Of a stretch of DNA of 64,000 nucleotides, positions 4,637-60,522 are shown one piece after another (the stretch's first letter is position 1; each line of letters begins with the position of its first letter). The position numbers and the translations under genes are program-made. Source of the stretch: Bryobacterales bacterium (GTDB lineage Bacteria; Acidobacteriota; Terriglobia; Bryobacterales; UBA6623). The notes under the pieces were generated by a model. The model made no database searches. It was not told the origin of the DNA and saw nothing but the letters and a program-made list of their open reading frames with translations. The stretch is from assembly GCA_022823865.1 (NCBI GenBank), contig JAJEHF010000026.1, positions 40,359 to 104,358 on the forward strand, in the 5' to 3' direction.

Positions 4637-4926
4637 CCGCCGCCACTTGCCCGCCTATCTGCCGGAGAGAAAGGTGCGACCAGCGGACTTGCGAGAGCAA
4701 GAGCTAGGGGAAGGCAACCAAAGGTGTTGGGCAAGCGGTTGCCCGACCCGGAGATCGGATCGCGAGTCGGTACGGACAACGGCTCCGTTCAACCGCCGGA
4801 AATGCCCAAGACTTCGCTGGCGCACCATTGGCTCGCAGCTGTCGCTGGCTTCCGGGCGCTTGACGGTATCCTATGCTGTTCAGAAGCCGACCTGACGGCG
4901 GCGAAGATCCCTGTTACAGCTTCTCA

Positions 4927-6333
4927 ATGCCGATTCGAATTGCTCTCTTGTTGGCGCTTCCAGTCTTGGCCAGCGCCAGTCCCAACGTCGTCTTCCTCGT
5001 AGCCGATGACCTCGGCTGGAACGATGTCGGCTACCACGGCAGCGAAATCCAGACCCCGAACATTGACGCCATTGCAGAGTCTGGAGTGCGCTTGGAGCGC
5101 CACTACTCCTATCCGTGGTGTTCTCCTACACGCGCGGCGCTCATGACCGGCCGCTCGCCGCTGGAGATCGGTGTTCACGGTCCATTAAATCCCAACCACC
5201 GCCGCGGACTGCCCACAGACGAGCATCTCCTGCCTCAATCGTTCGCCGGCGGCGGCTACCAAACATTCGCTACAGGCAAGTGGCACCTCGGCAATGCGCA
5301 CGTAAAGTACTTCGCGCACAATCGTGGCTTCGACTCGTTCTACGGCCACACAGGTCCCGGGATCGACTATTTCCGCCACACCATCGCCGGCTCTTACGAC
5401 TGGCAGCGGAGCGGAAGATCTGCGAGGGACGAGGGCTACTCGACTTCGCTCATTGGCAACGAAGCAATCCGGGCAATCCTCGACCGCGATCCTGAGCGAC
5501 CGTTCTTGCTCTACGTGGCGTTCAACGCCCCGCACACGCCGTTGCAAGCTCCGCCCCATTATGTCGAAAAGTACGCGCACATCGAGAAGGAAAGCCGCAG
5601 GGTGTTCGCGGCGATGGTCGACTGCATGGATTCCGCAATCGGCCGAATCCTCGGCACCATCGAATCGGAAGGTCTCGCGCAGGACACGCTCGTAGTTTTC
5701 ATCAGTGACAACGGCGGCCTGCTCGCAACGGATGGCGGTGCCGACAACAGTCCGCTCAAAGGCGAAAAGACCCAGACTTGGGAGGGCGGGATTCGGACTC
5801 CGGCGGCGGTTCACTGGCCCGGCGTGGTGGAAGGCGGGGAAGTGCTCAACGACTTGGTCACGGTGCATGACTGGTTTCCAACACTTCTGGAAGCCACCGG
5901 CGTGCGGGGGCGGAACGAGAAGCCGTTTTACGGGCGCAGCGTGTGGCCAACGATCCGAGATCGCAAGCCGCTCGGCGAACGTCGGGTCGTGATCGGCGCC
6001 ACTGGATGGTTTGCGGTCTTCGACGGCCCTTGGAAACTTGTCCACCGCCCGCTGCCGGGGGGTCGTAGCGAGCGGACACTGTATCGGATCTTCGATGATC
6101 CAAGCGAGAGCCGCGACCTTGCGGCGAACGAGCCAGCGGCGTTCGAGCGCCTCGCGGGGATCCTGGACAGCTTCTCGGTTGGCGAGAACATCAGCGGTCC
6201 GGCTCCAGGCGACGAGCGGTTGCCCAATGGCAGGCGCAGGCCGCCTCCCGGAAACGGCTTGCCCGGAAACCCTCACCCATCACAGGCGCCCGAGAGGCGG
6301 CCGCCGTTCGCGGAGCGAGCGGCACGAGACTGA
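4927..6333 (+). CDS. sulfatase (arylsulfatase family)
   Basis: Signal peptide then PNVVFLVADDLGWNDVGYHGS; Cys-type active site CSPTRAALMTGR; GKWHLG. Confidence 0.93.
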   Translation: MPIRIALLLALPVLASASPNVVFLVADDLGWNDVGYHGSEIQTPNIDAIAESGVRLERHYSYPWCSPTRAALMTGRSPLEIGVHGPLNPNHRRGLPTDEHLLPQSFAGGGYQTFATGKWHLGNAHVKYFAHNRGFDSFYGHTGPGIDYFRHTIAGSYDWQRSGRSARDEGYSTSLIGNEAIRAILDRDPERPFLLYVAFNAPHTPLQAPPHYVEKYAHIEKESRRVFAAMVDCMDSAIGRILGTIESEGLAQDTLVVFISDNGGLLATDGGADNSPLKGEKTQTWEGGIRTPAAVHWPGVVEGGEVLNDLVTVHDWFPTLLEATGVRGRNEKPFYGRSVWPTIRDRKPLGERRVVIGATGWFAVFDGPWKLVHRPLPGGRSERTLYRIFDDPSESRDLAANEPAAFERLAGILDSFSVGENISGPAPGDERLPNGRRRPPPGNGLPGNPHPSQAPERRPPFAERAARD

Positions 6334-6475
6334 TGTGTTGGATGGTCGGGAACGTGCAAGCCCCTGGGACGCAGCGTCATTCCCGGTTTGGCAGCTTAGC
6401 GGTCTGTGCCCGCCAAGCGATTGAGAACTCTATATGCTAGTCAAGCGTTCCGCGCCACGGCGGCCTCGTCTTTCA

Positions 6476-7909
6476 ATGCAGATCAGCAACATTTCCGTGC
6501 TTCTTCGAATCCTTCTCTGTCTCACGCTCCCGATTCTCGCAAGTGCGGCGCCCAACATCGTCTTCATGATGGCGGACGACCTCGGCTGGAACGATGTCGG
6601 CTATCACGGCAGCGTGATCAAGACGCCGAACATCGATGCGTTGGTCGAGCAAGGCGTCGAATTGGATCGCTACTATGCGTTCCCTCTTTGCAGCCCGACC
6701 AGGGTGGCGCTGATGACCGGGCGCTCCCCAATCCGACAGGGCATCGACACTCCCATCGGGCCCAACGGCGGCTTGCCTCTCGACGAGCATCTCTTGCCTC
6801 AAACGTTACAGGCCGCCGGATACCAGACGTTCATGGCAGGCAAGTGGCACTTGGGGATTGAAAGGATTGCCTCCCATCCGTATCGTCGGGGATTCGACCG
6901 GTCATACGGGCACCTCGGGGCTGCGGTGGACTACTTCGCTCACAACTGGCTTGGCGGCTTGGACTGGCACCGCAACGGTGAAGTCCTGCGAGAAGAGGGG
7001 TATGCGACGGAACTGATCACGTCTGAAGCGCTCGATCAGATCAGGGCCCGGGACAAGTCCAAGCCGATGTTCCTCTACGTGGCCTTCAACGCCCCTCACA
7101 CGCCGCTGCACGCCACAGAGACCTACTTGGAGCGCTATCCCGACCTCGAGGACTCCAATCGGAAGGTATTCGCGGCGATGGTGAGCGCCATGGACGACGG
7201 AGTCGGGAGAGTATTAGCAGCGCTGGAGGCAGAGGGCATTGCCGATGACACGCTGGTGGTCTGGGTCAGCGACAACGGTGGCAGTATCCGCGCCGGCGCG
7301 AGCAACGAACCGCTACGAGGCGGCAAGAGCAGCGCATTCGAGGGCGGCATCCGGGTGCCGGGAGTGGTTCGGTGGAATGGCGTCCTGACCGCCGGAAGCA
7401 AGCTCGAGCAGCAGTTCAGCGCGCATGACTGGTTCCAGACGCTCACGTCGGCTGTCGGCGTCGACCCCCAAAACGCCAAGCCGTTCGATGGATTCGACAT
7501 GTGGCCGGCGCTCAAGGACGGAACGGCGGTCGCTCGTGATGAGACCGTGATCGGCGTGGACGGCAACTATGCGATCTTTCGTGACGGCTGGAAGCTCGTC
7601 GAATTCACTCCCCGCAATTCCGGTCAAACCACGCTGCATCTCTACCGGATCGAAGACGATCCCGGCGAAGAGCACGACCTGATCGAGGTCAAACCAGATC
7701 TGGCTGCTGAACTGCTGACGCGAATTCGCTCGATACCGAGACCGCCCTCTGTGAGCAGGGATCTCCAGCCGCGCGGACCGCGGCCCGGAGCGCCAGCGAA
7801 GGCGGGGCCTAAGGCAAAGGGGCGGGGCGGGCGCGGAGCGCGAGACCCGCGTGCCGGATGGCCGAACGAGACGCGAGAGCCGTGGATCGACACGGCGCTG
7901 CGGGATTGA
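6476..7909 (+). CDS. sulfatase (tandem paralogue of preceding gene)
   Basis: PNIVFMMADDLGWNDVGYHGS; CSPTRVALMTGR; GKWHLG. Confidence 0.93.
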   Translation: MQISNISVLLRILLCLTLPILASAAPNIVFMMADDLGWNDVGYHGSVIKTPNIDALVEQGVELDRYYAFPLCSPTRVALMTGRSPIRQGIDTPIGPNGGLPLDEHLLPQTLQAAGYQTFMAGKWHLGIERIASHPYRRGFDRSYGHLGAAVDYFAHNWLGGLDWHRNGEVLREEGYATELITSEALDQIRARDKSKPMFLYVAFNAPHTPLHATETYLERYPDLEDSNRKVFAAMVSAMDDGVGRVLAALEAEGIADDTLVVWVSDNGGSIRAGASNEPLRGGKSSAFEGGIRVPGVVRWNGVLTAGSKLEQQFSAHDWFQTLTSAVGVDPQNAKPFDGFDMWPALKDGTAVARDETVIGVDGNYAIFRDGWKLVEFTPRNSGQTTLHLYRIEDDPGEEHDLIEVKPDLAAELLTRIRSIPRPPSVSRDLQPRGPRPGAPAKAGPKAKGRGGRGARDPRAGWPNETREPWIDTALRD

Positions 7910-25044: not shown

Positions 25045-26595
25045 ATGTATCAACGCCGAATCTCCCACCTATTTTCTCAATCGCAGGTGATGGTGCTGGC
25101 CGCGGCCTGCCTGTGCCTGCTGTTGGGGGCATGCGCTACGTCTGAGACTTCCGCACTGCCGGAACGGCCCAATGTGCTTTTCATCGTCGTCGACGATCTA
25201 AACGTTGCGCTGGGCTCGTATGACGGCTATCCGACAGCCAAGACTCCGAATCTCGACCGCCTCGCATCCGAGGGAGTGCAATTCGACAGAGCCTACGCTC
25301 AGGATCCCGTTTGCAACCCGTCTCGGACATCCTTTCTCAGCGGTCGCCGCCCACCGACCACGAATGTCTACGGAAACTTCGTAGAGCCGCGCACTTACCT
25401 CGGCGACGTCGTGATGCTGCCCGAGTACTTCGGTGCGCACGGATACTTCACCGCCAGGGTGGGGAAGGTAGCCCACGGCAGGTACGAAGCTGCCGTGAAA
25501 TGGGACATCTCCGAGAATGCCGCCCGGAGGGAGCACTACCTTCCGGGAGTGGACCATTCCGAGGTCCGTGACAACACATGGATCGAGGGTTCGGAGGAAG
25601 GCCTCTCAAGGGCGGAGATCCTAGGCCACCTCGACCGGCCGACTGGGATGCCGCTGAGCTGGCGGGCCACCGACGAGACCGAAGCCGAGACTCCTGATGG
25701 TCAGACCACACGGCGCGTCATTGAACTCATGCGGGAGAACCAAGACAATCCGTTCTTTATCGCTGCGGGCTTCCACAAACCGCACCAGCCGTGGGTAGCG
25801 CCCAAGGAATTCTTCCAGCAGCACCCAATCTCGGAAGTCGCCCCTCCGGACGAACCAGCCGACGACACTGCCGACATCCCAGCCCCGGCGCTAGGCAACT
25901 ACCCGGAAGATAAGGACCACAGCGAGGAGCAGGTGCGTCAGGCGATCGCCGCATATCACTCGACGGTCACTCTCATGGATGTCCAAGTCGGCCTGCTAAT
26001 GGAGGCGCTGACTGAACTTGAATTAGAAAGGTCCACCATTGTGGTCTTCTTCAGCGACCACGGCTTTCATCTTGGAGAGCACGGCGGGCTCTGGCGCAAG
26101 CACACGCAGTTCGAGGAATCGACGAGAGTTCCGCTGATCGTGCGGATGCCTGGCGGAGTGTCCGACAGAAACACCAGCGCGTTGGTCGAACTCGTTGACC
26201 TCTACCCGACACTGGCCGACCTCTGCGGATTGCCGTCTCCTGAAGGCATGGAGGGCATCAGCTTCCGGCCAGTGCTTGAAGACCCGGACGTTCCTTGGAA
26301 GAGCGCGATTTTCTCGGAAGCAAAGCGCCAGGGCGCACATGGGCGGTCGGTACGCACCCACCGGTATCGTTTTACCGAGTGGACGCCGCTTGAGGGTGAT
26401 GGCGAGCCGCAATTCGAGCTATACGATCTGGTCGTTGATCCCAAGGAATACGACAACCTAGCCGGCGACCCAGAGCACCAGCCCACGATGGACCGTCTTG
26501 CCGCAGTCTTGGAGAGCGGGTGGAAAGCCGCGCTCCCCGGTGCCAGCGTCGGGGGCGGGGATCTGTACTCTGAGGCCGGAAATCAGGCCGAGTGA
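25045..26595 (+). CDS. sulfatase (iduronate-2-sulfatase-like), lipoprotein
   Basis: Lipobox LLGAC; RPNVLFIVVDDLNVALGSYDG; CNPSRTSFLSGRRP. Confidence 0.92.
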   Translation: MYQRRISHLFSQSQVMVLAAACLCLLLGACATSETSALPERPNVLFIVVDDLNVALGSYDGYPTAKTPNLDRLASEGVQFDRAYAQDPVCNPSRTSFLSGRRPPTTNVYGNFVEPRTYLGDVVMLPEYFGAHGYFTARVGKVAHGRYEAAVKWDISENAARREHYLPGVDHSEVRDNTWIEGSEEGLSRAEILGHLDRPTGMPLSWRATDETEAETPDGQTTRRVIELMRENQDNPFFIAAGFHKPHQPWVAPKEFFQQHPISEVAPPDEPADDTADIPAPALGNYPEDKDHSEEQVRQAIAAYHSTVTLMDVQVGLLMEALTELELERSTIVVFFSDHGFHLGEHGGLWRKHTQFEESTRVPLIVRMPGGVSDRNTSALVELVDLYPTLADLCGLPSPEGMEGISFRPVLEDPDVPWKSAIFSEAKRQGAHGRSVRTHRYRFTEWTPLEGDGEPQFELYDLVVDPKEYDNLAGDPEHQPTMDRLAAVLESGWKAALPGASVGGGDLYSEAGNQAE

Positions 26596-34469: not shown

Positions 34470-35177
34470 CTATCCGGGAATGGATGCGATGCGGAGCAGG
34501 CCCCCCTGCAGGGCTGCCACGACACGAGAGCGCTTCTCGCTGTTGCTGAGAAACGGCCCGCGGGACAGCTCTAGCTGGAACCACGGCATCTCGGCACCGT
34601 GTGATCGGGTGATGTAGCCGCCGCTGAACGGCTGGTTGACCGTGACCGACGGGCCGAAGGCCTCTCGAAAACTCTCCTCAAGGCACGCCATCCAGCGGGG
34701 TGGGCAGGCCCCGCCACCATCGCCCAAGCAGACATGCGGGCGTTCGATCCCCGCGCCCGGACCGATGGGCGGGCCGACGGCGAGCATCGTGTGGCAGTCG
34801 ACCGCGAGGCGCAAGCCCTCCCCTGCAAGGGATCGCAGCTGGGAGTGGTAGGGACGATGGTACCGGTCCAGCAGCTTGTCTATAACCTTGTCGTCCAATG
34901 GTTTGCGATAGACGGGCTCGTTGAAGCAGGTGTGCGTCTTGACGACGCCGTCAGGTCGACGATCGTCCTCAGCGCGGTTCAGATCGACCACGGCGCGCGC
35001 AACGTGCGTCGTGCAGAATGCAGCAACGTCGCCAGCGATGTCATAAATCTCTGCCGCATGCTCGTCTCCGTCTGCCACGATCTGCCCTCTCGACAGGATG
35101 CACAGCGATTCGACCTCCCGGGGCACTTCCAGCCCGGCATGGGGAACGGACGCGAGGACAGGGAGTGGTTTGCTCAA
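34470..35177 (-). CDS. N-formylglutamate amidohydrolase family protein
   Basis: LASVPHAGLEVP; RAVVDLNRAEDDRR; VDCHTM; TTG start at 35177 overlapping the upstream TGA (TTGA). Confidence 0.85.
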   Translation of the reverse strand: MSKPLPVLASVPHAGLEVPREVESLCILSRGQIVADGDEHAAEIYDIAGDVAAFCTTHVARAVVDLNRAEDDRRPDGVVKTHTCFNEPVYRKPLDDKVIDKLLDRYHRPYHSQLRSLAGEGLRLAVDCHTMLAVGPPIGPGAGIERPHVCLGDGGGACPPRWMACLEESFREAFGPSVTVNQPFSGGYITRSHGAEMPWFQLELSRGPFLSNSEKRSRVVAALQGGLLRIASIPG

Positions 35178-36904
35178 TCCGGTCTCCCTTCCGCTCTTGT
35201 AGTGCAAGCCCCGCCCGCAGAGCCATCTCGACGGGGATCGGCCACACCGACGAATCCGTCGCGCTCGCGCAGGACAAGCTGCACGCATCCGAGATAGAAA
35301 GCGTAGGGTTCGCGGATGTCCACGTCGAACCCCCGGGCCGATAGTGCCTCCGGGAGGTCGTCGCGCATGCGCGACGCTTCGAGCGATACAACTCCTCGGA
35401 CCGAGCAAGACAGGCGCGGGGACGAAACCGCTGCCAGCGGGTCAGCCCCGCCGAGTAGCCGTATCAGTACCTGTAGGATCGAAGGCGTAATGCGCTCGCT
35501 CCCCGGCGACCCGATCGCAAGCCACGGCCGCCGCCCCCGGAAGACAATCGTCGGCGCCACGCTTGCCCAGGGCACACCATTCGGCCGGAGGTAGTATGGA
35601 TGCGTCCGATCGTCGTGCTCGAACGCGTTCATGTAGTTGTTGTAGAGGAAGCCCAGCTCTGGAGTCGCCGCGCACGAGCCGTATACGTTCTCGATCGATT
35701 GCGTAAGCGCGACCGCATTCCCCATACGATCCATCACTGACAGGTGGGTCGTTTCGCCATGCCCAAGGAAGCGCTTGCGGATAGCGGCTGCCACCTCCTT
35801 TGCGTAGTCCGGACTCACCATCCGACGCTCCGACACTTGAGAGTAGAGGTTGGGATCGAAGGGGCGGTCGGTGCGGTCGAGAAATGCGTGCCGGATGGAT
35901 TCGGCCAGCACGATGGCTCCGTCCCGGGTGTCGATGTCGCGAGCGGCCTTCGGGAGCCGCTCGTGGATGTTGAGCATCTCGATCAGGGTGCGCCCCGCTC
36001 CTGGAGGGGGCATCGAGAACACCCTGTGGCCAAGGAAGCGCGCGGTGACGGGACGCCGCTCGACCGGCACGGGAACTTGTGCTAGGTCGTCAATCTGGAG
36101 GAGCCCCCCGTTCCGGAGCATGTCGGCCTCGATCTCGCGGGCGATTTCGCCACGATAGAAATCGTTGATTCCGTGCTCCGCCAGTTGGCGTAACGTGGCT
36201 GCCAGCACGGGCTGGCGGAATACCGTCCCAGCGCGATAGGGCAGCTTGCCATCGCGCAGGAACAGTGGAGCGGCCGTCCCCGCGCGCAGGAACTTCAGCT
36301 CTCTCCGGGTCAGCGCGTACTGGAGCAAGCTGACCTCGTAGCCGTCGTCAGCGAGCTCGATGGCCGGCCGTAGCACTGCCTCGAGTGGGAGCGTGCCGTA
36401 GGTAGAGCGGACGTAGTCTAGGACTGCCGGGGTGCTCGGGACGGTCGTAGCCCGGTAACCGCGCCGGCACTCGGACCGTGCGTTGCCGAAAGCATCGCGC
36501 GTGGCGCGATTCGGCGCGCGCGACGAGCCGTCGATGGCAAAGGTGCGACGCGCCGCAGCGTCGTGCACCAGCATCATGGTCTGGCCGCCGAGCCCGGAAG
36601 CCGCCGGTTCGCAGACACCTAGCGCAAACCCCGCAGCGACGGCCGCGTCGAACGCGTTCCCTCCCGCGTTCAGCATGGCCACGCCCGCAGCTGTGGCTCC
36701 GTGATGGGCGGTCGCGACCATACCCCCAGGAGATACTGCGAGGCGCTGTGGCTCGTGGACGCGACGGTCTCCCAGTTGGAGGAACGCGGTGTCCGCGGCC
36801 TCGTTGAGGCCCTGCTTCGTGCGCCGGATCCTGTTTGGTTGGCTCGACGGTGCTGGTCCCCGCACTCGGATGGCCGGCTTGGCTTCGACCGGCTTCTGTG
36901 TCAT
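35174..36904 (-). CDS. gamma-glutamyltransferase family protein
   Basis: GNAFDAAVAAGFALGVCEPAASGLGG; nucleophile context GHGETTHLSVMD; ATG 36904 overlaps upstream stop (ATGA). Confidence 0.9.
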   Translation of the reverse strand: MTQKPVEAKPAIRVRGPAPSSQPNRIRRTKQGLNEAADTAFLQLGDRRVHEPQRLAVSPGGMVATAHHGATAAGVAMLNAGGNAFDAAVAAGFALGVCEPAASGLGGQTMMLVHDAAARRTFAIDGSSRAPNRATRDAFGNARSECRRGYRATTVPSTPAVLDYVRSTYGTLPLEAVLRPAIELADDGYEVSLLQYALTRRELKFLRAGTAAPLFLRDGKLPYRAGTVFRQPVLAATLRQLAEHGINDFYRGEIAREIEADMLRNGGLLQIDDLAQVPVPVERRPVTARFLGHRVFSMPPPGAGRTLIEMLNIHERLPKAARDIDTRDGAIVLAESIRHAFLDRTDRPFDPNLYSQVSERRMVSPDYAKEVAAAIRKRFLGHGETTHLSVMDRMGNAVALTQSIENVYGSCAATPELGFLYNNYMNAFEHDDRTHPYYLRPNGVPWASVAPTIVFRGRRPWLAIGSPGSERITPSILQVLIRLLGGADPLAAVSSPRLSCSVRGVVSLEASRMRDDLPEALSARGFDVDIREPYAFYLGCVQLVLRERDGFVGVADPRRDGSAGGACTTRAEGRPD

Positions 36905-39063
36905 GTAGTCCCGCTCCGCTTGAGCCGGCTCGCCAGGAACTCGGCCAGAAGCAGGCTTCGCTGGACGATTGTGATCCGTTGGACGGCTTCGTGCGGGGTG
37001 CGCAAATCGCGCGCTACGGGCCCGACGGCGCAGACGCACGCCTTGTCGGCAGGCACGAGTCCGGCGACCGAAGGCCAACTCGACGTACCCCGCTCCAGCG
37101 ACATGTCCCAGTGCACCGCGACCGAGGCCAGTTCGTCGGCTAGGGCCCGACTCGCCTTGCGGTCTGTGAACGGCGGCCGGTTCGTGCTCTCCACGAGCTC
37201 CCAGCGAATCCGACCTTTGCCTAGGACGGCTCGAATCCTGTCGCCTATTCGCTCGCCTGCCTCGACCGTGGGATAGCTCGCGACGATGTTCGCGGTCGCC
37301 CTGTGGGCCAGGTGCATCGGGTGCCGCTCCTCTCGAACGTCGGTTGTGGAGACCGCGATCCGCTCCGCCTGCGAAGACAGCTTGGCGATCTCTTCCAGCT
37401 TCTGCCAAGTCCAGCGCAATGCGTCCGGCCGCTGGAAGACACGGCCGATGCGGAAGGACTCTGATTCGACGCGTAGCTGGAAGGTCCGGTAGCCTTGCCG
37501 CTGGACCACGATCTCGTCGGGTGGGATGCCGGCACCGAGGACGAACACCCCGCGGGAGCGCGCCGCTGCCGCTCGGATCTCCTCGGCGCTAAACCGCGCG
37601 TCCTCACCCTCGTCGGCATAGCACAGGACCCCCAACGGAAGGTGCCGGAGGCGGCGCAGGCTCCGCAGGGCGCGCAATGCGAACTCCAGCGTGACTAGCG
37701 ACGCCCGCGACGAGCCGATCCCCTCGCCGTGCAACCACTCGGGGTCGCGACGAAATCCCTGCGGCGGGAATTGGGGGTCCAGGGGCACATCGAGGTTCGC
37801 AATCAGCAGGATGCCTCCGTCGAGCCCCGCTTTGGTCTGCCACGTCGTCACAACACCGGGGTCTGACAGCGCCGGGATCTCCCGCATGCCGAGGTCTTCG
37901 AACAAATCTGAGGCAACCTTGAACGCTTGCTTGGTGCCGAGCGAATCTCCCGTGCGGCTCCGGAGCCGGACCCATTCCTCCAGCCGCCCTTCCATCGCGT
38001 CCCGTCGGGACGTGATATAGGAGAAAACGTGCTCCGTGGGATCAGCCGTGGAGAGCGATACGGTGGGCGGGCTTGGAGTGCCGAAGTAGCGGGCGCTCGC
38101 GACCTCGACCAAGCGGTTCACGAACCGCGTAAAGTCGAGGCCCACCTGCTCGGCACCCACCAGATAGGACCCATGCTCACCGAGGCTGGGCAAGCTGTTG
38201 ATCTCCAAGATATAGAGCCTGCCACCGTCGTCTAGGCGCATGTCAACGCGGGCACAGTCGTAGCAGCCGAGCGCGGTGAACGCTTTGGCAGCAATGTCCC
38301 GGGCTTGCTCCTGCAACCCTTCCCCGATCTCGGCAGGGCAGCGGTGCGAGATGGATCGGCCACTCTTCCCGGTCTTGTCTTCGTAGGTGTAGATGGCCGG
38401 GCCGTCATTGCCGAAAATCAGCTCCACAGGTGGAAAGGCCTCGGGCGGATTATTCCCTAACAGGCCGACGTTGACCTCGCGCCCCTCGATGAACTGCTCT
38501 GCCAGCACGGCCTGCTGGAACTCCTGATAGATGACCCCCGCCGCCTCCCGCAGTTCGGCCTCATCTTGGACCACCTTGAGGCCGAAGGAAACCGCTTCGT
38601 TCTTGGGCTTCACAATCAGCGGATACGTGAGTTCGGGCAGGTCCGCGTCCGGCGTCTGAAGCACTGCGAAGTCCGGCGTCGGCAGATCGTGCTGGCGCAG
38701 GATCATCTTGGTGACGACCTTGTCGAGGCAGAGCGAGTGCGCCAAGGGCCCGGAAGCGACATAGGGTATTCCGACCATCTCCAAGATGCTGGGCACGTGC
38801 GTGTAGCGGGCCTGACCCTGCAGGCCGTAGGAAACGTTGAAAACAAGACCCGGACGCTCCCCCTTAACCACCCTCGGCATGAAGCTCTCGAGCCGGTCGA
38901 TCAGATCCTTGTCGCCTTCCAAGGCGATCACTTGGTGGCCCCCCGCCTTCAGTGCCGTAGTCAGCCGGCCGATGGTCTGGAGGCCGATCTTCTCTCTGTT
39001 CGCCATGCCGAACAGGTTGATCACGCTCTGGCTGTCCCGGTTGTAGACAATTGCGATCTTCAT
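36901..39063 (-). CDS. ATP-grasp (D-Ala-D-Ala ligase-like) fused to M20-peptidase-like domain
   Basis: N-term YPLIVKPKNEAVSFG...EQFIEGREVNVGLLG...DMRLDDGGRLYILEINSLPSL; C-term NLDVPLD...GEGIGSSRA...ADEGEDA...GPVARDLRTPHEAV resembles M20. Confidence 0.82.
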   Translation of the reverse strand: MKIAIVYNRDSQSVINLFGMANREKIGLQTIGRLTTALKAGGHQVIALEGDKDLIDRLESFMPRVVKGERPGLVFNVSYGLQGQARYTHVPSILEMVGIPYVASGPLAHSLCLDKVVTKMILRQHDLPTPDFAVLQTPDADLPELTYPLIVKPKNEAVSFGLKVVQDEAELREAAGVIYQEFQQAVLAEQFIEGREVNVGLLGNNPPEAFPPVELIFGNDGPAIYTYEDKTGKSGRSISHRCPAEIGEGLQEQARDIAAKAFTALGCYDCARVDMRLDDGGRLYILEINSLPSLGEHGSYLVGAEQVGLDFTRFVNRLVEVASARYFGTPSPPTVSLSTADPTEHVFSYITSRRDAMEGRLEEWVRLRSRTGDSLGTKQAFKVASDLFEDLGMREIPALSDPGVVTTWQTKAGLDGGILLIANLDVPLDPQFPPQGFRRDPEWLHGEGIGSSRASLVTLEFALRALRSLRRLRHLPLGVLCYADEGEDARFSAEEIRAAAARSRGVFVLGAGIPPDEIVVQRQGYRTFQLRVESESFRIGRVFQRPDALRWTWQKLEEIAKLSSQAERIAVSTTDVREERHPMHLAHRATANIVASYPTVEAGERIGDRIRAVLGKGRIRWELVESTNRPPFTDRKASRALADELASVAVHWDMSLERGTSSWPSVAGLVPADKACVCAVGPVARDLRTPHEAVQRITIVQRSLLLAEFLASRLKRSGTT

Positions 39064-42205: not shown

Positions 42206-43510
42206 GGACTCTCGCCAAAACAAGTTCATTGTTTTGTGTTTGTATTTTGGTATCCTAGGGAGGCATGGGTGATGTGGTGCAAAGCATCCGGGCCCGGTAC
42301 GAAGCCTTGCGGCCTGTGCTCGACGAGAGAAGCCGTCGAGTCTGGGCCGGGGCCGAGGCTCGGGCGATCGGGCGCGGCGGCATCGCCCGGGTGGCGGAAG
42401 CGACCGGGATCGCGCGCGAGACGGTGCGCCAAGGCCTGCGCCAAGTGCAGGCCGGCGAGGTCGGCGTCGCGGCCGCTGGCAGCGAGCGGCAGCGGCGTCC
42501 GGGCGGGGGGCGCAAGAAGCTGACCGCGCGCGACCCGCAACTGCGGGCGGCGCTGGAGCGCAAGCTGGACCCGGTCACGCGCGGCGATCCGATGGGGCCG
42601 CTGCGCTGGACGTGCCTGAGCGCGGAGCGGCTGGCGCAGGCGTTGCGGGCCGAGGGGCACGCGGTCAGCGAGCGCAGCGTGAACCGGCTGCTGCACGAGC
42701 TGGGCTACAGCTTGCAGGCGAATCGCAAGACGCTGGAGGGACGGCAACACCCCGACCGGGACGCGCAGTTCCAGTACATCGAGCGCCGGGTGCAGGAGTT
42801 CCAAGGTGCGGGACAGCCGGTAGTTTCGGTGGACTCGAAGAAGAAAGAGTTAGTGGGGCGTTACCGCAACGGGGGGCGCGAGTGGCGTCCTGAGGGGCAG
42901 CCGGAAGAGGTGCAGGTGCATGATTTCCCGGACGCGGAATTGGGCAAGGCGCTGCCGTACGGGGTGTACGACCTAGCGGCCAACAGCGGCTGGGTGAGCG
43001 TGGGCGTGGACCATGACACGTCGGAGTTCGCGGTGGAGACGCTGCGGCGCTGGTGGCGGCAGATGGGGGCCCCGGCCTATCCGCGCGCCGAGCGGCTGTT
43101 GATCACCTGCGACGGGGGCGGCTCCAACAGCAGCCGCGGGAGGTTGTGGAAGTTGGAACTGCAAGGGCTGGCGGACGAGAGCGGGCTGCGGATCTCGGTG
43201 TGTCATTTCCCGCCAGGAACGAGCAAGTGGAACAAGATCGAACATCGGATGTTCTGCCACATCACGCAGAATTGGCGTGGCAGGCCGTTGGTCTGCCGCG
43301 AAGTGATCGTGAATCTGATCGGGGCGGTGAGCACCAAGGAGGGGCTGAGAATCGAATCCGAGCTGGACGAGAACCGCTATGAGCTGGGAAGGAAAGTCAC
43401 GGACGCGGAGCTGAAGCGGCTTTCGATTGAACGCGCCGAGTTCCACGGAGAGTGGAACTACACCTTGGCACCACGGCCATCAAACGAAGAAGTTATTTAG
43501 GCGAGAGTCC
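42206..43510 (+). mobile_element. ISAzo13-family insertion sequence
   Basis: TIR GGACTCTCGCC / GGCGAGAGTCC; 3-bp TSD TTA (42203-42205 and 43511-43513); 1305 bp. Confidence 0.93.
42265..43500 (+). CDS. ISAzo13-family transposase
   Basis: VSVDSKKKELVGRYRNGGREWRPEG; DGGGSNSSR; WNKIEHRMF. Confidence 0.92.
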   Translation: MGDVVQSIRARYEALRPVLDERSRRVWAGAEARAIGRGGIARVAEATGIARETVRQGLRQVQAGEVGVAAAGSERQRRPGGGRKKLTARDPQLRAALERKLDPVTRGDPMGPLRWTCLSAERLAQALRAEGHAVSERSVNRLLHELGYSLQANRKTLEGRQHPDRDAQFQYIERRVQEFQGAGQPVVSVDSKKKELVGRYRNGGREWRPEGQPEEVQVHDFPDAELGKALPYGVYDLAANSGWVSVGVDHDTSEFAVETLRRWWRQMGAPAYPRAERLLITCDGGGSNSSRGRLWKLELQGLADESGLRISVCHFPPGTSKWNKIEHRMFCHITQNWRGRPLVCREVIVNLIGAVSTKEGLRIESELDENRYELGRKVTDAELKRLSIERAEFHGEWNYTLAPRPSNEEVI

Positions 43511-46376
43511 TTAGACGACACCTCGGGCTTCATCGACCTGTTCTGGCCGGGCGTGCTGCTGGTGGAGCAAAAGAGTGCTGGACGGGATCTAGCCGCAGCC
43601 CGCAAGCAGGCGGGTGCTTACTTCGATGCTCTGCCGGAGAAGGACCGGCCACGCTACCAACTGCTCTGTGATTTCCAAACGTTTGAGCTGCTTGATCGAA
43701 GTGAGCGGGAAGAGACACGGTTCGAACTTGCAGACCTACCGCAACATGTTGAGAAATTCGGATTCATCCTGGGCGTACAGCGACGCACGTTCCGCGACCA
43801 AGATCCCGTCAACATCAAGGCATCGGAGCTGATCGCTCGCCTCCACGACGCGCTCAAGGAATCTGGATATGAGGGCCATGACCTGCAGCGGTTCTTGGTG
43901 CGGACTGTTTTCTGTCTGTTCGCCGATGACACGGGGATCTTTGAACCGCGCGACCTCTTCCTACAGTTCATCGAGGAACGCACATCGGAGGACGGGGCGG
44001 ACCTCGGTCCTTGGTTGGCAAGGGTTTTTCAGGTCCTGAACACTCCGCTAGAACGGAGGCAGAAGGCCTTAGACGAGGATCTGTCCCGATTTCCGCATGT
44101 GAACGGCGACCTGTTCGCCGACCCACTCCTCATTCCGGACTTCGATGCGTCGATGCGCGAGGCGTTGCTGGAGGCGGGCCGCTTCGACTGGACAGCCATC
44201 TCGCCAGCCATTTTTGGAGCGCTGTTCCAGTCGGTCATGGAACCGGCGGAGCGCCGTGCCGCAGGAGCGCATTACACGACAGAGAAGAACATCCTGAAAG
44301 TGATCGAGCCGCTGTTCCTTGACTCACTCCGGGCCGAATTCAATCACTTGAAGGAGCGTCGGGACGGCCGGAGTCTAGCCGACCTCCGCAAGTTCCGAGC
44401 CCGGCTTGGCTCAATCCGTTGCTTCGATCCAGCATGTGGATGTGGCAACTTCCTGATCATCGCCTACCGAGAACTACGCTCGCTGGAAATCGAGGTGCTC
44501 AAAGAGATGGCACAGCGCACCGGCGGGGTGCAGCTCGCGGTCGACGTATGGTCAGTAATTGACGTTGATCAGTTCTACGGTATTGAGCTCGGAGAATTTC
44601 CGGCTCGCATCGCGGCGACTGCTCTATGGATGATGGACCATATCATGAACAATCGGCTAAGCCTCGAGTTTGGCCAGACATACGCACGGATTCCGATAGA
44701 GAAGTCGCCGCGCATCCATCATGCCGATGCGCTAGAGATCGACTGGACCGACATACTGCCGCCAGAGGAATGCTCGTACGTGTTCGGGAATCCGCCGTTT
44801 GTTGGTGCCAAGTTCCAGTCTCCAAAGCAGCGGTCCCAGGTTCGTCGCATTGCCGCGCTCGGGGGCAGCGGGGGGTCGCTGGATTATGTTGCCGCATGGT
44901 TCATCCGGGCTGGTGAGTACGCACGCCAGGCTCAATCGAAGACCGAGAACCTAGCACCGAAGATCGGTTTCGTCTCGACCAACTCTCTTACACAGGGGGA
45001 GCAGGTTGCGCAACTCTGGCCGATCCTGTTTGAACGTCACAGGCTAGAGATCACCTATGCCCACCGCACGTTCGGGTGGGGCTCCGACGCGCGTGGCAAG
45101 GCCAATGTGCATGTCGTCATCATCGGACTGGACTTGTCCGAGAATGCTCGGTCCGACCGGCGCTTGTTTTCTTATCGCAACGTTCAGGGCGTACCACTTG
45201 AGAGCGGCCACCGGGTGATAACTCCCTACCTACTAGATGGCAGTGGGCTAACCGATCCGCATCTAGTCGTACGCGAGGAAGGCCGACCCATCAACGGGAT
45301 GCGCCAGTTGATTACGGGATCGAAGCCGATAGACGATGGTCAATTTATTTTCCGGGCCGAAGAACGGTCCACGTTTCTGAAGGCCGAGCCAGATGCCGAG
45401 ATGTACTTCCACCCGTTCGTCGGAGCACGTGAATATTTGCAAGGCGGCAAGCGCTGGATTCTAGCCTTGCATGATGCTTCCCCCGCTGACTTAGCTCGGT
45501 TACCGTGCGTCCGGGAGCGCATCGCTGCAGTTCGTGCCTACAGGTGTGCCAGCGACAGCCGACCGACACGGCGACTGGCCGAAACGCCGACGCTCTATCA
45601 TGTAAACGTCTTGCCGAAGGCTCCGTTCCTAGTGATTCCACAGGTCAGTTCCGAACGGCGCGAATACGTTCCCACCGGCTGGTTGGGGCCGCCGGTCATT
45701 CCCAGCGACAAGCTCCGCCTCCTACCTGATGCGACCCTCGCCGAGTTCGCCCTGCTGACCTCTGCCATGCACATGGCATGGATGCGGGCTGTGACAGGGC
45801 GAATGAAGAGCGACTATATGTACTCCGTCGGCGTTGTCTACAACACGTTTCCGACGCCACCTGGATTCGCGGACGAGGGAACTGATCTAACCAAGCTGGA
45901 GCCGCTAGCAAAAGCCGTTCTCGACGCCAGATCCGCATACCCGGATGCGACGCTAGCGAACCTGTACGATCCGGATCTGATGCCATTGAACTTGCGCACG
46001 GCGCATCGCGCTCTTGACCAAGCTGTGGACCGACTCTATCACAGGGGTGGGTTCGAGTCCGAGCGCGAGCGTGTGGAGCATCTGTTCATGCTGTACGAGA
46101 AGATGCGCGTGCCGCTGGATGCGGCGAATAGAGCGAAGCCGAAGCGCCCCAGAAGAAGGACGTCTACTTGAGACTCTGGAAACTAAGGGACTCTAGTAAA
46201 ACGCCTGATATCACCAGCCCATTGAACGATCTGGCCCAAGACCGGATCGAAAGATATTCAACGCCTCGAACGCCTGCTTGCAGATTCTCGATCAATCAGT
46301 ATTGCTCATCTTCGACAGTTTGATTTTTGCGTGTCTCTAAACCAAGCTATTGCAATAGCTTAGAGTAGGCAGAAAT

Positions 46377-48347: not shown

Positions 48348-51300
48348 TCATATCGAACTCCCTTGACTCCACTGGTTTCTGATCTCGGCAAACTCATGAT
48401 CGGACTTGCAAATTGCCTGCCACCGTGCTATTACATCTGGGACCACTCGCCTCTGGTTTACGTAATTGTTGTATAGAGTGAAAGCCAAGGCGGCTGCTTC
48501 CCGCCTTACAAGCAACTTTGTTGGAGTGTCGATCTCATCTCTGCCTCTACCACGAAGAGGCGTGCTACGGGCATATTCCGTTTCAACAATCATGCATCTA
48601 AGCCCAAGAAGCAAAGGCCTCTCGATGTCTTCGACGAATGTCCAAGGGTGCATCCTGATCACGTGTGCGACGGTACCAATGGCTAGAGGCAATCCTGTTT
48701 TACTCCGCCACTGTAAAATTTGGCTAGCCGCTTGCAGCAGCCTAAAGAGAACCTCCCTGTTTGCCTCTTGTGAATCCGTTTCTGCTCTCTTGGAAATTAC
48801 CGCTACCGCACGCAGTGCGTCGCTTACTGTCTCTTTCGTAGATGATGCCAGCCCGTCCTCAATGCTCTGAACGATCCGACCTCGCCGATCCGGCAATATG
48901 TCAAGGCAGGCTGCCTCGAGGCGAAGTGCTGAGACTCCATAATCCGAAAACTCGTCGACAAGTCGACTCATGCTCTCTCTCATCGCACCTCTCCCGGGAT
49001 TAATCGCAATCAAAGTGTTAACCAACCACGAAAACCTGCGATTGAACTCGTCAGAAATCGATCCAAAAGGCCCCCTATCACCCGATCTCGTCAAATACTC
49101 CTTGTCATTGTCCCACCACTCGAGCAGTCGACAGACAATCGAATGCGCGTCCTCATCCGACCATTCGAGCAGATCGCTTGCACCGCAGATCTCGATACAA
49201 ACAGTAATAGACTGCCCAATCCTGATGCTCTCGGCGTCTTTTTGCAGGGGAAACTGGCCTTGTAGCACGTACTCCTTGAATAGGGCAACTGGATCAACGT
49301 CTATTGGATGCGGCAACGTGAGGAGCTCGTGTCGATAGAGGACCTTCGTGCCGACCGGCAGGCCATTCTCATCCAGCCGATGCCACAAGGCGTTAGCAAA
49401 CTGTTCTTCCTGACTAGTGTTGAGAAGCCTAAGATCGTACAACGTCTGGAGACTTGCTAGTGCCCATACTCTACGGTCTAAATTGCTCGACGAAAGATGC
49501 TCAATTAGGTGACCCCAAGTCTCTTGGTCAATCGCCACCCTGGCGGTAACTACGTCTGTTTTGTCAAAGAATACAAGGGGATTCACATATTCCTGTGCTT
49601 CGATTGGATTTAGGCCCGAGAGAATCGGGAACTCCAATAACTTCGGGACCATCTCTACACGTCTCGTGTGAGAAAGAGATTCAATGAGTCTTCTCAACAA
49701 CTGTTTTATTCCTCGAAACTCCCCCCTTTTGTCGGAATGATATATGCCGATAAGGAAATCAATCAGTTGTTCCTTGACACCTTCTGAGCACTTTGAACAA
49801 AACCTTGACAGGATCTCCGGAACGACAGTAGCGAGAACAATACCAAAATTAAAGTCACGAAATTGATTACCAGCATTGATATCCGACGCAGCAAGATTGA
49901 GGGCTCTCAAGTAGAGTTTGGCGAGATTGTCGACATGTGAGACGTCCATCCGAGCCAATGATGACCGGTCGAAGATATGGTCAACCGAGTTTTTGTCGTT
50001 AATGCGTACCACTATCGTGTTTGACCACGCCTGAGAGTAGTTCGCAATGCGTAAGAGTGCACCTTTGGCGCTTTTGGTCGCAATGATGCGTCCTGGCATT
50101 CGGAATGGTAAGCCGACATCTTCACTGAACCGGAGAAAACTATAGGCTATCAAAGCATCGTGGTCCCAGTTTCCGAGATGGTCTGTTCGTGCTTGATATC
50201 CGATGTCAAATGTTGGCGTTATTTTGACGGATGATTGGTCGCTTTGTGGTCGATCTAGTGCGCGTTCAAAGACGTCTAATTCATTCCAAGGATCGCACTT
50301 GAATTGCTTTAGTGAATGCCAACGCTCGGAAAATTGCTTTTGTAGTGCTTGTTCTTGTCGATCTTCATTGTCTGCATTGAAAAACCACGGTCGTTGCGTA
50401 CAGCTCAGCAAGAGCATGACGAACGACTCAGCAGAGACTAGCGAAAAATCGGTTGTAGTTGGCGTAAGATTCAAACGATCGCGAATCGAATCGAGCGCAT
50501 GTTTAAGCAGATTGCGAGCTTTGTCCATCTGACCGACCTCCGCTAGTAGGCCAGCCTTCTTCGCGCTCCAGAAGGAGAGGGACGGGTTGTCTGGCCATTC
50601 CTCGAGGCAAGTTTTTAACTTCTGTACATCCAATTCGAATAAGGCAAGCATCGCGCATTCGTAATGAAGGTGTGCGGTGTGCTCCGGTGAGAGCGAGGCC
50701 TTGACTTTCTCCAACTGCGTGCGTCGCGCTTGCCAATCATCTGATAGTCCCTGTTCGCGGTAGTACCGCATTAGTGCAAGGAGTAGGTGATGTACCATAT
50801 GCCTAACTTCTCGGCGGGTCAGGCCTCGGGCCTTCATGCTGGTTTGATTTGGAGACAGTGATTCGATCGGTCCGTCGACTCCTGCAAATGGCCAGTATCG
50901 GTCTAGAGTCGTCTCAAGGAACTGGACTTGTGTGTTGAAGACGAAGAGGGGGCATAGGCACTTTTCCATGCGCCAAGTCAATTCGAAGGCATATTCGAGG
51001 TCAATAAAGTGCGAGAGGCTTTCGGTGGCTGGGGGGTCTTGGATTAGCCGCTTCGTCTGCAGCCATAGTGCGCGGCGGCGATCTTCAGGGACGATCACCC
51101 AGCCTGGGTACAATCGGCGCTGCTGCTTCCATGTCTGTGCGAGCACGGAGGGCTCGGATTCGCGGTTCGGAGGTGCTGGTGTGTCAGGATCTATTGGCCA
51201 GCCTAGACTGTCGTCGATTCGTCTTGATTGCAAGTAGGCGAAGAATCGTTCGAACGCCTTGTAGTGATCATCAGCGATGCCTGGACATTCGGACATGTCG

Positions 51301-52062
51301 ACGGGAACGATATTGCGTCGCTCAAGAAGTGTTTTCTGCGAGCGTGACAAACGGAGCACTCCGACGAGGTACATTTTGGGGGCGTTCTCGAGTCCGAGTT
51401 TGTCGTGAATCCATCCGATCCAACGGAGAAAATTCGGGTCATCACCAGAAAACCCGATCAGGCATAGTGTGTTTTCCAAGCGCCTGACGCACCGTGTTCA
51501 CGAACGGGGCAGATTCTTCCGGATAGCACCGGTAATCTTCGTCGGTGACGATTAACCGTCGATCGGACTGAAAGCTGCCATGGAGCTTGACGATCCGCGG
51601 CTTTCCCGAGTCCCCAAGGTCATTCGAGTTGGTAACGATTTCGTATCTTCGTGAAGAAATGGAACTTCGCGCGCGTTCGAGGAGCGTGTCGTAATTCGTC
51701 GTAAGCACGTCGGCCCAAGGCAGTTCGAGCAACTTAGTGTGCAACGGCGACGGGTCTGAGGCAAGATCAGGGATGGCGTCGCGCAGAATCCGATCCAATG
51801 CGGGGCGACCGAGCGCAGCCTCGACTTCATGTGCCAAAGTCGGTACATCAAGGTAGTGGGTGTCGGGCCCGGGCCTCTTGCCATGAATCGTCTCGTAAAG
51901 AAGGTCTCCCAGTTGGTTCCAGCTGGGAAAGTCTGGAGAGGCGTTGCGACTGAAGCCAGACCCGACCATTACGGCGGCATGTCCAGATAGCAGGCGCTGG
52001 GAGATTTCATCCAAGTAAGGCTGGAGGTTGGCCGGAATTTCGCTTGTCACGGGGTCACTCAT
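48348..52062 (-). pseudogene. large SIR2-domain protein (putative anti-phage), split by frameshift
   Basis: 52062-51442: VMVGSGFSRNA, TTNYDTLLE, VKLHGS (SIR2 core) then off-frame stop; the 51479 frame starts LENTLCLIGFSGDDPNFLRWIGW (SIR2 C-terminal core) plus about 1000 aa helical region. Confidence 0.85.
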
Positions 52063-52508: not shown

Positions 52509-52861
52509 TGGTGGAGGCGGCGGGAATCGAACCCGCGTCCGAGAAAGGCCACTACGAAGAGCCTACATGCTTAGTTCATTCCAAGATCTCAACTGCAGGC
52601 TTTGAATGAACAAGCTACCTGCGGCCCAGCCTGATTGGTCTCGGTCACAAAACTCCAGGCGGAAGCCTCGAAACCTATCTCGCAAGATGACGTCTTGTCC
52701 CGATGTGCGAGCCCAGCGGGCAAGACGGCTACCTAAGCTTAGGCAGCGTGTGCAAACTGCATGTCGTTGGCAGTTCTTTTGTTCCGATCGTTTAACGGGT
52801 GCTCGGAACCCGGCATGCCTCTAAGCAGCGACTGCGATCTCGTCGAATCCTTTACGCCCCC
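52509..52861 (-). ncRNA. ssrA: transfer-messenger RNA (tmRNA)
   Basis: 3' end GGACGCGGGTTCGATTCCCGCCGCCTCCACCA; 5' GGGGGCGTAAAGGATTCGACG pairs with acceptor strand; tag ORF ANDMQFAHAA-stop at 52771-52739. Confidence 0.95.
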
Positions 52862-59184: not shown

Positions 59185-60522
59185 TCAGCGTTCCATCCGG
59201 AAGGCTGCTGTCCAAGCGCTTAGTTCCTGCTCAAAGGCTTGCACTGTCTCAGGAACCTCATCAGAAAGATCTCGAGTCTCGCCCAGATCTTCATCTAAAT
59301 CATAGAGTTCCGATCCGTTGTTTCCGCTCTGAACTAACTTCCACTTTCCCTTGCGGACTGCCGCCTCAGAACGGATGCGCCAATACAGCGTCCTAGACGC
59401 AAGCGGCTCTTGGTCAAGCAGCAAGCGCGTCAGGCTAGTGCCGTCCAAAGGGTGAGGGCTAGCAACACCGGCGAGTTCGAGCAGCGTTGGCATGATGTCA
59501 AACGTCGCGGCGAGGTCGTGGGAAACACCCGGAGTGATCGTACCGGGCCACCAAGCGATGGCCGGCACGCGATGGCCGCCCTCGTAGACGTCGGTCTTCT
59601 GGCCCCGAAGAGGGCCGTTCTCGGAGATGTTGTGATAGCCGCCTTGGTACGTCAGGTAGCCGCCGTTGTCGGAGGTAAATATGACCAAGGTGTTATCCGC
59701 GAGACCTTGGTCCCGCAACGCCTCGAGGATGGAACCTACACTCGCATCGACAGCTTCGACCATCTTGTTGACTTGCGAAGACACGTCGAGGCTCTCCAAT
59801 TCGCCGAGTTTCGACAGATTGTGATAGTTGCCGCCTTCGACGCGGTAGCCTTTGTCGTCCGGCCCCTGCCAAGGGAAGTGGATGGCAAGATGTGCCACAT
59901 ACAGGAAGAATGGCGCGTCTCGTTGGCGCTTGATGAAGTCCACACTGTGCTGCGTGATCAGATCGACGCCATAACCCTCCTCGGGAGCGAGCTCCTGATT
60001 GTGCCACCAGTCTGGGCGACCTGACCTGTCGATGTGAGAGTGGTGATCGCCGTCGCCGCTCGCCAGCCCCCGAAAGTCGTCGAAACCCTGATCGATCGGC
60101 ATATGGGGTGGGTGGTAGCCCAAATGCCACTTTCCGTACATGCCTGAGACATAGCCTGCGCTAGCAAGTACCTCAGGTATGGTCACAGCATCTAGCGGGA
60201 GGCCGGTGTCGTAGTCCTCGACGCCAGATAGCGCGCTCTCGAAATTCCTGCCAAATCGTTGCGGGTAGAGCCCAGTTAGCAGCGATGCCCGCGTGGGCGT
60301 GCACATCGGGCCGTTGGAATGAAAGTCAGTGAACCGCAGGCCTTCTCGGGCCATGCGGTCAAGATGCGGCGTGGCATTTCGGACGCTGCCATATGCGGCG
60401 ATGTCGCCATACCCCAGGTCGTCGGCCAGTATTACGACGAAGTTGGGCCCGGCATGCTCAGGGACTGAAGAGCACGCCGACCATGCCAGAAGGGCAACGC
60501 AGGCCAGAGAGCATGACCTCAT
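59185..60522 (-). CDS. sulfatase (arylsulfatase-like)
   Basis: PNFVVILADDLGYGDIAAYGS; CTPTRASLLTGLYPQRFG; GKWHLGY. Confidence 0.93.
   Translation of the reverse strand: MRSCSLACVALLAWSACSSVPEHAGPNFVVILADDLGYGDIAAYGSVRNATPHLDRMAREGLRFTDFHSNGPMCTPTRASLLTGLYPQRFGRNFESALSGVEDYDTGLPLDAVTIPEVLASAGYVSGMYGKWHLGYHPPHMPIDQGFDDFRGLASGDGDHHSHIDRSGRPDWWHNQELAPEEGYGVDLITQHSVDFIKRQRDAPFFLYVAHLAIHFPWQGPDDKGYRVEGGNYHNLSKLGELESLDVSSQVNKMVEAVDASVGSILEALRDQGLADNTLVIFTSDNGGYLTYQGGYHNISENGPLRGQKTDVYEGGHRVPAIAWWPGTITPGVSHDLAATFDIMPTLLELAGVASPHPLDGTSLTRLLLDQEPLASRTLYWRIRSEAAVRKGKWKLVQSGNNGSELYDLDEDLGETRDLSDEVPETVQAFEQELSAWTAAFRMER

Follow-up and report, generated by a model that had tools for sequence, protein, structure and literature searches.

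A conserved cassette of an ATP-grasp/M20-fold fusion protein, a GGT-family protein and an FGase-family protein in bacteria and archaea

The review of amidoligase operons by Iyer et al. 2009 reportedly describes ATP-grasp genes with peptidase-type partners; the review is cited in PMC12239564. Among characterized systems, the nearest in logic to the cassette described here is the osmotically induced NAGGN operon asnO-ngg-peptidase (PA3459-PA3461), a short operon in which dipeptide-forming enzymes are accompanied by a peptidase gene (PMC8070244). NAGGN is made by a GNAT-containing Ngg together with an asparagine-synthase-like amidotransferase, whereas the cassette has a γ-glutamyltransferase (GGT)-family protein, an FGase-family protein and a predicted M20 pseudo-peptidase instead; neither an asnO-type amidotransferase nor a GNAT-containing Ngg was found among the cassette genes. 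The cassette is real, conserved and widely shared. An earlier note on this DNA knew of no established pathway with this composition, and none was found described in the literature searched, the review by Iyer et al. lying outside that search.

Three overlapping genes in the Bryobacterales window

The window, that is, the whole stretch of DNA analyzed, comprises 64,000 nt from a Bryobacterales bacterium (GCA_022823865.1, contig JAJEHF010000026.1, positions 40,359-104,358 of the forward strand). The three minus-strand open reading frames reported by the earlier note are all present at the positions it gave, and both junctions are 4-nt stop/start overlaps, as it had claimed (Table 1). Its TTG start for the third gene is supported because an ATG-started relative (L042) has an identical N-terminus. 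In Pfam, the ATP-grasp part of the fusion protein (residues 122-320) falls in PF07478 (Dala_Dala_lig_C, E 3.6e-37), the second protein in PF01019 (gamma-glutamyltranspeptidase, E 5.2e-117), and the third in PF05013 (FGase, E 4e-44), for which it scores 151.8 bits against a gathering score of 28.9.

Table 1. Positions of the cassette genes and their parts in the window
Feature	Positions	Strand
Fusion protein, 720 aa: D-Ala-D-Ala-ligase-like ATP-grasp, then carboxypeptidase-G2-like predicted M20 pseudo-peptidase	36901..39063	-
ATP-grasp half of the fusion, residues 1-329	38077..39063	-
M20-fold half of the fusion, residues ~340-716	36916..38046	-
ATGA overlap: fusion stop and GGT start	36901..36904	-
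GGT-family Ntn-hydrolase, 576 aa	35174..36904	-
Thr385 codon of GGT: predicted self-processing site and nucleophile	35750..35752	-
TTGA overlap: FGase TTG start and GGT TGA stop	35174..35177	-
FGase-family (PF05013) hydrolase, 235 aa	34470..35177	-

Active-site residues of the three proteins

An AlphaFold model of the fusion protein was built from 51 relatives (pLDDT 87.8, pTM 0.82). In a Foldseek search its N-terminal half matched DdlB (E 9.7e-26), and DdlA/DdlB were the closest solved structures to the ATP-grasp half. This half shares its fold and ATP-site residues with the Ddl family and has the fold and ATP/Mg residues of the ATP-grasp ligase superfamily; K115, K152, E189, E196, K230, R272, D274, E287 and N289 are invariant in the 51 relatives. 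By contrast, the fusion scores far under every listed curated Ddl cutoff (best NCBIfam D-alanine--D-alanine ligase score, 179.6 bits versus a cutoff of 243) and carries an attached M20 fold. Amide-forming ligase chemistry is likely for this protein.

The C-terminal half has no Pfam match, and a sequence comparison with solved structures gave only a marginal match, to a poly-aspartate hydrolase (E 0.03). In the model, however, this half matched carboxypeptidase G2 over approximately 387 aligned columns (Foldseek E 3.2e-25, target TM-score 0.75), and the name "M20-like" given to it previously is therefore right as a fold. Carboxypeptidase G2 and the M20 peptidases share the whole-domain fold with the fusion, whereas their metal ligands and Glu-Glu pair are not retained in it. 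With ligand positions set by sequence alignment and not by coordinate superposition, the first ligand His was found in 13, the bridging Asp in 3 and the last His in 4 of the 51 fusions; the Glu-Glu pair was kept in none, most having DEG there, and a complete catalytic metal site was likewise found in none. Some ANME-2c fusions retain three metal-site positions without the catalytic Glu. A profile alignment with an ArgE/DapE-type protein placed the motif GRGAGDMK opposite GEGIGSSR, and four M20 peptidases proved too dissimilar for a useful MAFFT alignment. D425, D484, E692 and R696 of this half are invariant in the 51 relatives. Judged from the metal-site positions, the M20 half is a predicted pseudo-peptidase, its catalytic site having been lost in all 51 relatives.

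The GGT of the cassette shares PF01019, the catalytic threonine and the GSPG loop with the Escherichia coli and Bacillus licheniformis GGTs. In solved GGTs, the threonine of the self-processing site is the first residue of the small chain, and it is present in every cassette GGT. R114, Q430 and D433 hold the γ-glutamyl group in E. coli GGT, whereas in the cassette proteins (E. coli numbering) R114 is replaced by Ser and Q430 by Tyr nearly throughout, and D433 is Ala in most, Asp occurring in the ANME-2c and SAR324 members. The GGT of the window scores 351.2 bits with TIGR00066, for which the cutoff is 357.85. On inspection by eye no signal peptide was seen on any cassette GGT, also a difference from the E. 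coli and B. licheniformis enzymes; the N-termini are short and charged and have no hydrophobic stretch, and a cytosolic location is predicted from them. CapD, a relative of GGT that acts on poly-glutamate capsule, was among the solved-structure matches. Loss of the clamp residues would be expected to change the substrate. A γ-glutamyl product, which the earlier note had offered as one possibility, is therefore not to be assumed, and, with the clamp lost and no signal peptide seen, "γ-glutamyltransferase" should be read as a family name and not as a substrate. The third protein, called N-formylglutamate-amidohydrolase-like in the earlier note, reaches 78 bits with the HutG model TIGR02017, well under its cutoff of 278.75.

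Distribution and gene order of the cassette

A scan of the sequence collection, for which a three-sequence profile and two short N-terminal peptide patterns were used, returned 69 places, 59 with the fusion and ten with distant ATP-grasps; the fusion count is a lower bound because the patterns were only two short N-terminal peptides. Carriers span approximately ten phyla of bacteria and archaea, including ANME-2c and ammonia-oxidizing archaea (Nitrosopumilaceae). GGT adjoins the fusion in 41 of 60 loci, the window included, and all three genes are together in 31. Fifteen fusions have no adjoining GGT (one, L058, has an FGase fragment), and contig ends leave the other 4 undecided. The Bacteroidota have a lone fusion.

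A cassette-type GGT placed elsewhere in the genome was considered for the lone fusions and rejected, as it was found in only 1 of 14 genomes searched (L076, 59% identity); the other 13 have no GGT or ordinary GGTs at 28-34%. The fusion by itself must therefore be useful. Since a quarter of the fusions stand alone, the ligase is the core of the cassette, and GGT and FGase are accessory. In the neighborhood check proposed by the earlier note, the trio is conserved in about half of the loci, and the absence of GGT that it regarded as refuting is partly seen. Its amide-forming ligase as the center of the set is borne out by the persistence of the fusion alone and by the invariant active-site residues.

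Within the phylum, a full-length fusion was found in 3 of 396 genomes (G000, G367 and G173); at E<=1e-40, all remaining matches covered the ATP-grasp only. The same three genomes have the cassette-type GGT (E<=1e-85) and the FGase (E<=1e-25), both on the same contigs as the fusion; we chose these thresholds for the phylum profile ourselves. None of 10 other members of the genus checked has an intact fusion, and one of the genus, G005, has a decayed, stop-containing N-terminal remnant (L044:7671-7925, 85 residues, 45% identity) directly after an MgtE-like gene; a 79% identical acidobacterial fusion (L083) likewise follows MgtE. Given the three genomes and this remnant, the fusion gene is rare, patchy and lost in places.

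The order fusion-GGT-FGase occurs in Acidobacteriota, Planctomycetota, Pseudomonadota, Myxococcota, archaea and some records named Bacillota/Mollicutes, and GGT-fusion-FGase occurs in other Bacillota. On the tree, gene order is more clustered than with shuffled labels and has changed repeatedly; the fusion of the window groups with two acidobacterial sequences (support 100/97 and 100/88). Horizontal transfer of the fusion gene is likely. Because the tight order recurs across phyla and the same three genomes of the phylum carry each protein, the trio is more than chance, and the suggestion that the three genes act together gains from both the conserved neighborhood and the matched phylogenetic profile.

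Candidate product, rival readings and related loci

We tentatively propose, somewhat short of even confidence, that the three enzymes form a short pathway of their own. Its ligase would produce a small, probably glutamate-like amide or dipeptide for GGT and FGase to tailor or recycle, the likeliest role of this product being that of a compatible solute or related protectant. Judging from its fold and invariant residues, the ATP-grasp half would activate a carboxylate with ATP and couple it to an amine. The non-hydrolytic M20-fold half is probably a binding domain for the acyl-amino-acid substrate or product and may steer or gate the ligase. The cytosolic GGT, which keeps its nucleophilic Thr without the usual clamp, and FGase might act next on amide bonds of the product, transferring or cleaving them either to complete it or to degrade it. 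Ligation would be the core step because some lineages retain the fusion only. By analogy with NAGGN, whose logic would be reached with different enzymes, the product may protect at high salt or high pH. The fuller reading, an undescribed compatible-solute or pH-protectant pathway of haloalkaline and marine bacteria and archaea in which an ATP-grasp ligase fused to a dead M20 fold would form a new small amide, to be completed or recycled by a repurposed cytosolic GGT and FGase, is one possibility to which we give clearly less than even weight, and a role as an osmolyte, although the leading physiological proposal, is plausible at a chance of about one third.

The presumed habitats of the carriers are consistent with such a role. 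Isolates with the fusion include Alkaliphilus, Evansella, Alkalihalobacterium, Anaerotalea alkaliphila, Litchfieldia alkalitelluris, Heliorestis and Carboxylicivirga, which we take to be alkaliphilic or marine, and many metagenome-assembled carriers are named after soda-lake-type sample series; this argument uses organism names and general knowledge of the species. Of 46 locus stretches, 7 contain MscS-family channel genes, where 0.55 were expected from the MscS count of each genome, a statistic picked post hoc after inspection; since L087/L088 and L090/L092 are related pairs, 5 independent cases are the fairer count, with an uncorrected P of about 2e-4. The locus of the window itself showed no MscS gene nearby. 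MgtE adjoins some cassette loci. No osmotic riboswitch was found upstream of 19 Bacillota-type loci, where the RNAs were a glmS ribozyme of another gene, rRNA, tRNA and a Bacillaceae-1 sRNA. The last (Rfam RF01690, L069:6201-6267) lies just 5' of the GGT-fusion-FGase genes of Alkalihalobacterium chitinilyticum and not before other cassettes.

On rhizobial plasmids the ATP-grasp half occurs by itself (39-45% identity); its neighbors in Bradyrhizobium are a GGT, a 7TM protein and a radical SAM protein of KamA-like type. This KamA-like, GGT, 7TM_transglut and ATP-grasp cassette has a homologous ATP-grasp (44.7%) and adjoining GGT (42-44%) but lacks the M20 half and FGase and has the KamA-like enzyme and 7TM protein in addition. 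In L105, L108, L109, L110 and L111, a KamA-type (lysine-2,3-aminomutase-like) gene is followed by two distant Ddl-like ATP-grasps, after which L105, L110 and L111 have a GNAT gene. These KamA-linked relatives suggest amino-acid or β-amino-acid substrates. Lysine 2,3-aminomutase was rejected as a required partner, as a KamA-type gene adjoins only in rhizobia and among the distant ATP-grasp relatives. KamA-type matches over 46 carrier genomes are of mixed types, and two genomes have none. A KamA-like subfamily with the motif MSHxTGKIEI and an Arg that aligns with Asp293, the lysine-binding residue of KamA, occurs in the window genome (L126:5446-6585, contig C150), in 16 other carriers and in some relatives without the trio; no trio member adjoins these genes.

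The Bradyrhizobium arrangement would suit protecting-group chemistry for a specialized metabolite or signal, in which the ligase adds an acyl-amino-acid that GGT and FGase later remove; a γ-glutamyl protecting group is used in butirosin synthesis. In the other phyla, however, the cassette has no constant set of scaffold-making neighbors, and the flanks vary by locus, which leaves this explanation unlikely. We consider it equally improbable that the cassette is catabolic, salvaging γ-glutamyl, N-acyl-glutamate or cell-wall peptides with a ligase that re-uses the freed amino acids: two of the three proteins belong to hydrolase families and the ligase resembles D-Ala-D-Ala ligase, but GGT appears cytosolic from its N-terminus and lacks the γ-glutamyl clamp, the M20 half is predicted to be non-catalytic, and it is the ligase that is retained where only one of the three genes is left.

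Modification of the envelope, in which the ligase and GGT would build a short acidic peptide for an alkaliphile cell wall, draws on the many carriers that are alkaliphilic Bacillota by name and on the CapD match. It is very unlikely, as the cassette GGTs have no visible signal peptide, ANME-2c and Nitrosopumilaceae archaea have the cassette as well, and Bacteroidota have the lone fusion.

If the product is a compatible solute, as we tentatively prefer, the cassette would partly explain salt balance in alkaliphiles, ANME-2c archaea and marine bacteria. Most carriers are uncultivated; ordinary isolates exist (Evansella, Alkalihalobacterium, Litchfieldia, Heliorestis and Alkaliphilus), and the product should therefore be directly identifiable. 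The trio is likely to be labeled D-Ala-D-Ala ligase, γ-glutamyltransferase and N-formylglutamate amidohydrolase in annotations, and the sequence evidence counters at least the first two labels as claims about substrate.

Several other features were also recorded. In L106, the gene after a distant ATP-grasp encodes a GNAT with a fused histone-deacetylase-like domain, and on a Mesorhizobium plasmid (L040:4923-7736) a KamA-like frame continues from an NRPS-condensation-domain-like stretch. A single block divergent from the G173 cassette (L043:5302-9591, minus strand) holds genes for a C39-like peptidase, an RLAN/RimK ATP-grasp, a GCS2 glutamate-cysteine-ligase-like gene and a second FGase. By eye, the window itself holds a SIR2-like ORF and then a long ORF beside a tmRNA gene (48348-52062 and 52509-52861), with the look of a defense-type insertion, and a transposase-like ORF that overlaps a large methyltransferase-type ORF (42265-46171), with an MmeI-like restriction-modification look. 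Four sulfatase-like ORFs were also seen by eye (4873-6333, 6434-7909, 25045-26595 and 59185-60522); sulfatases are typical of degraders of sulfated, often marine, polysaccharides.
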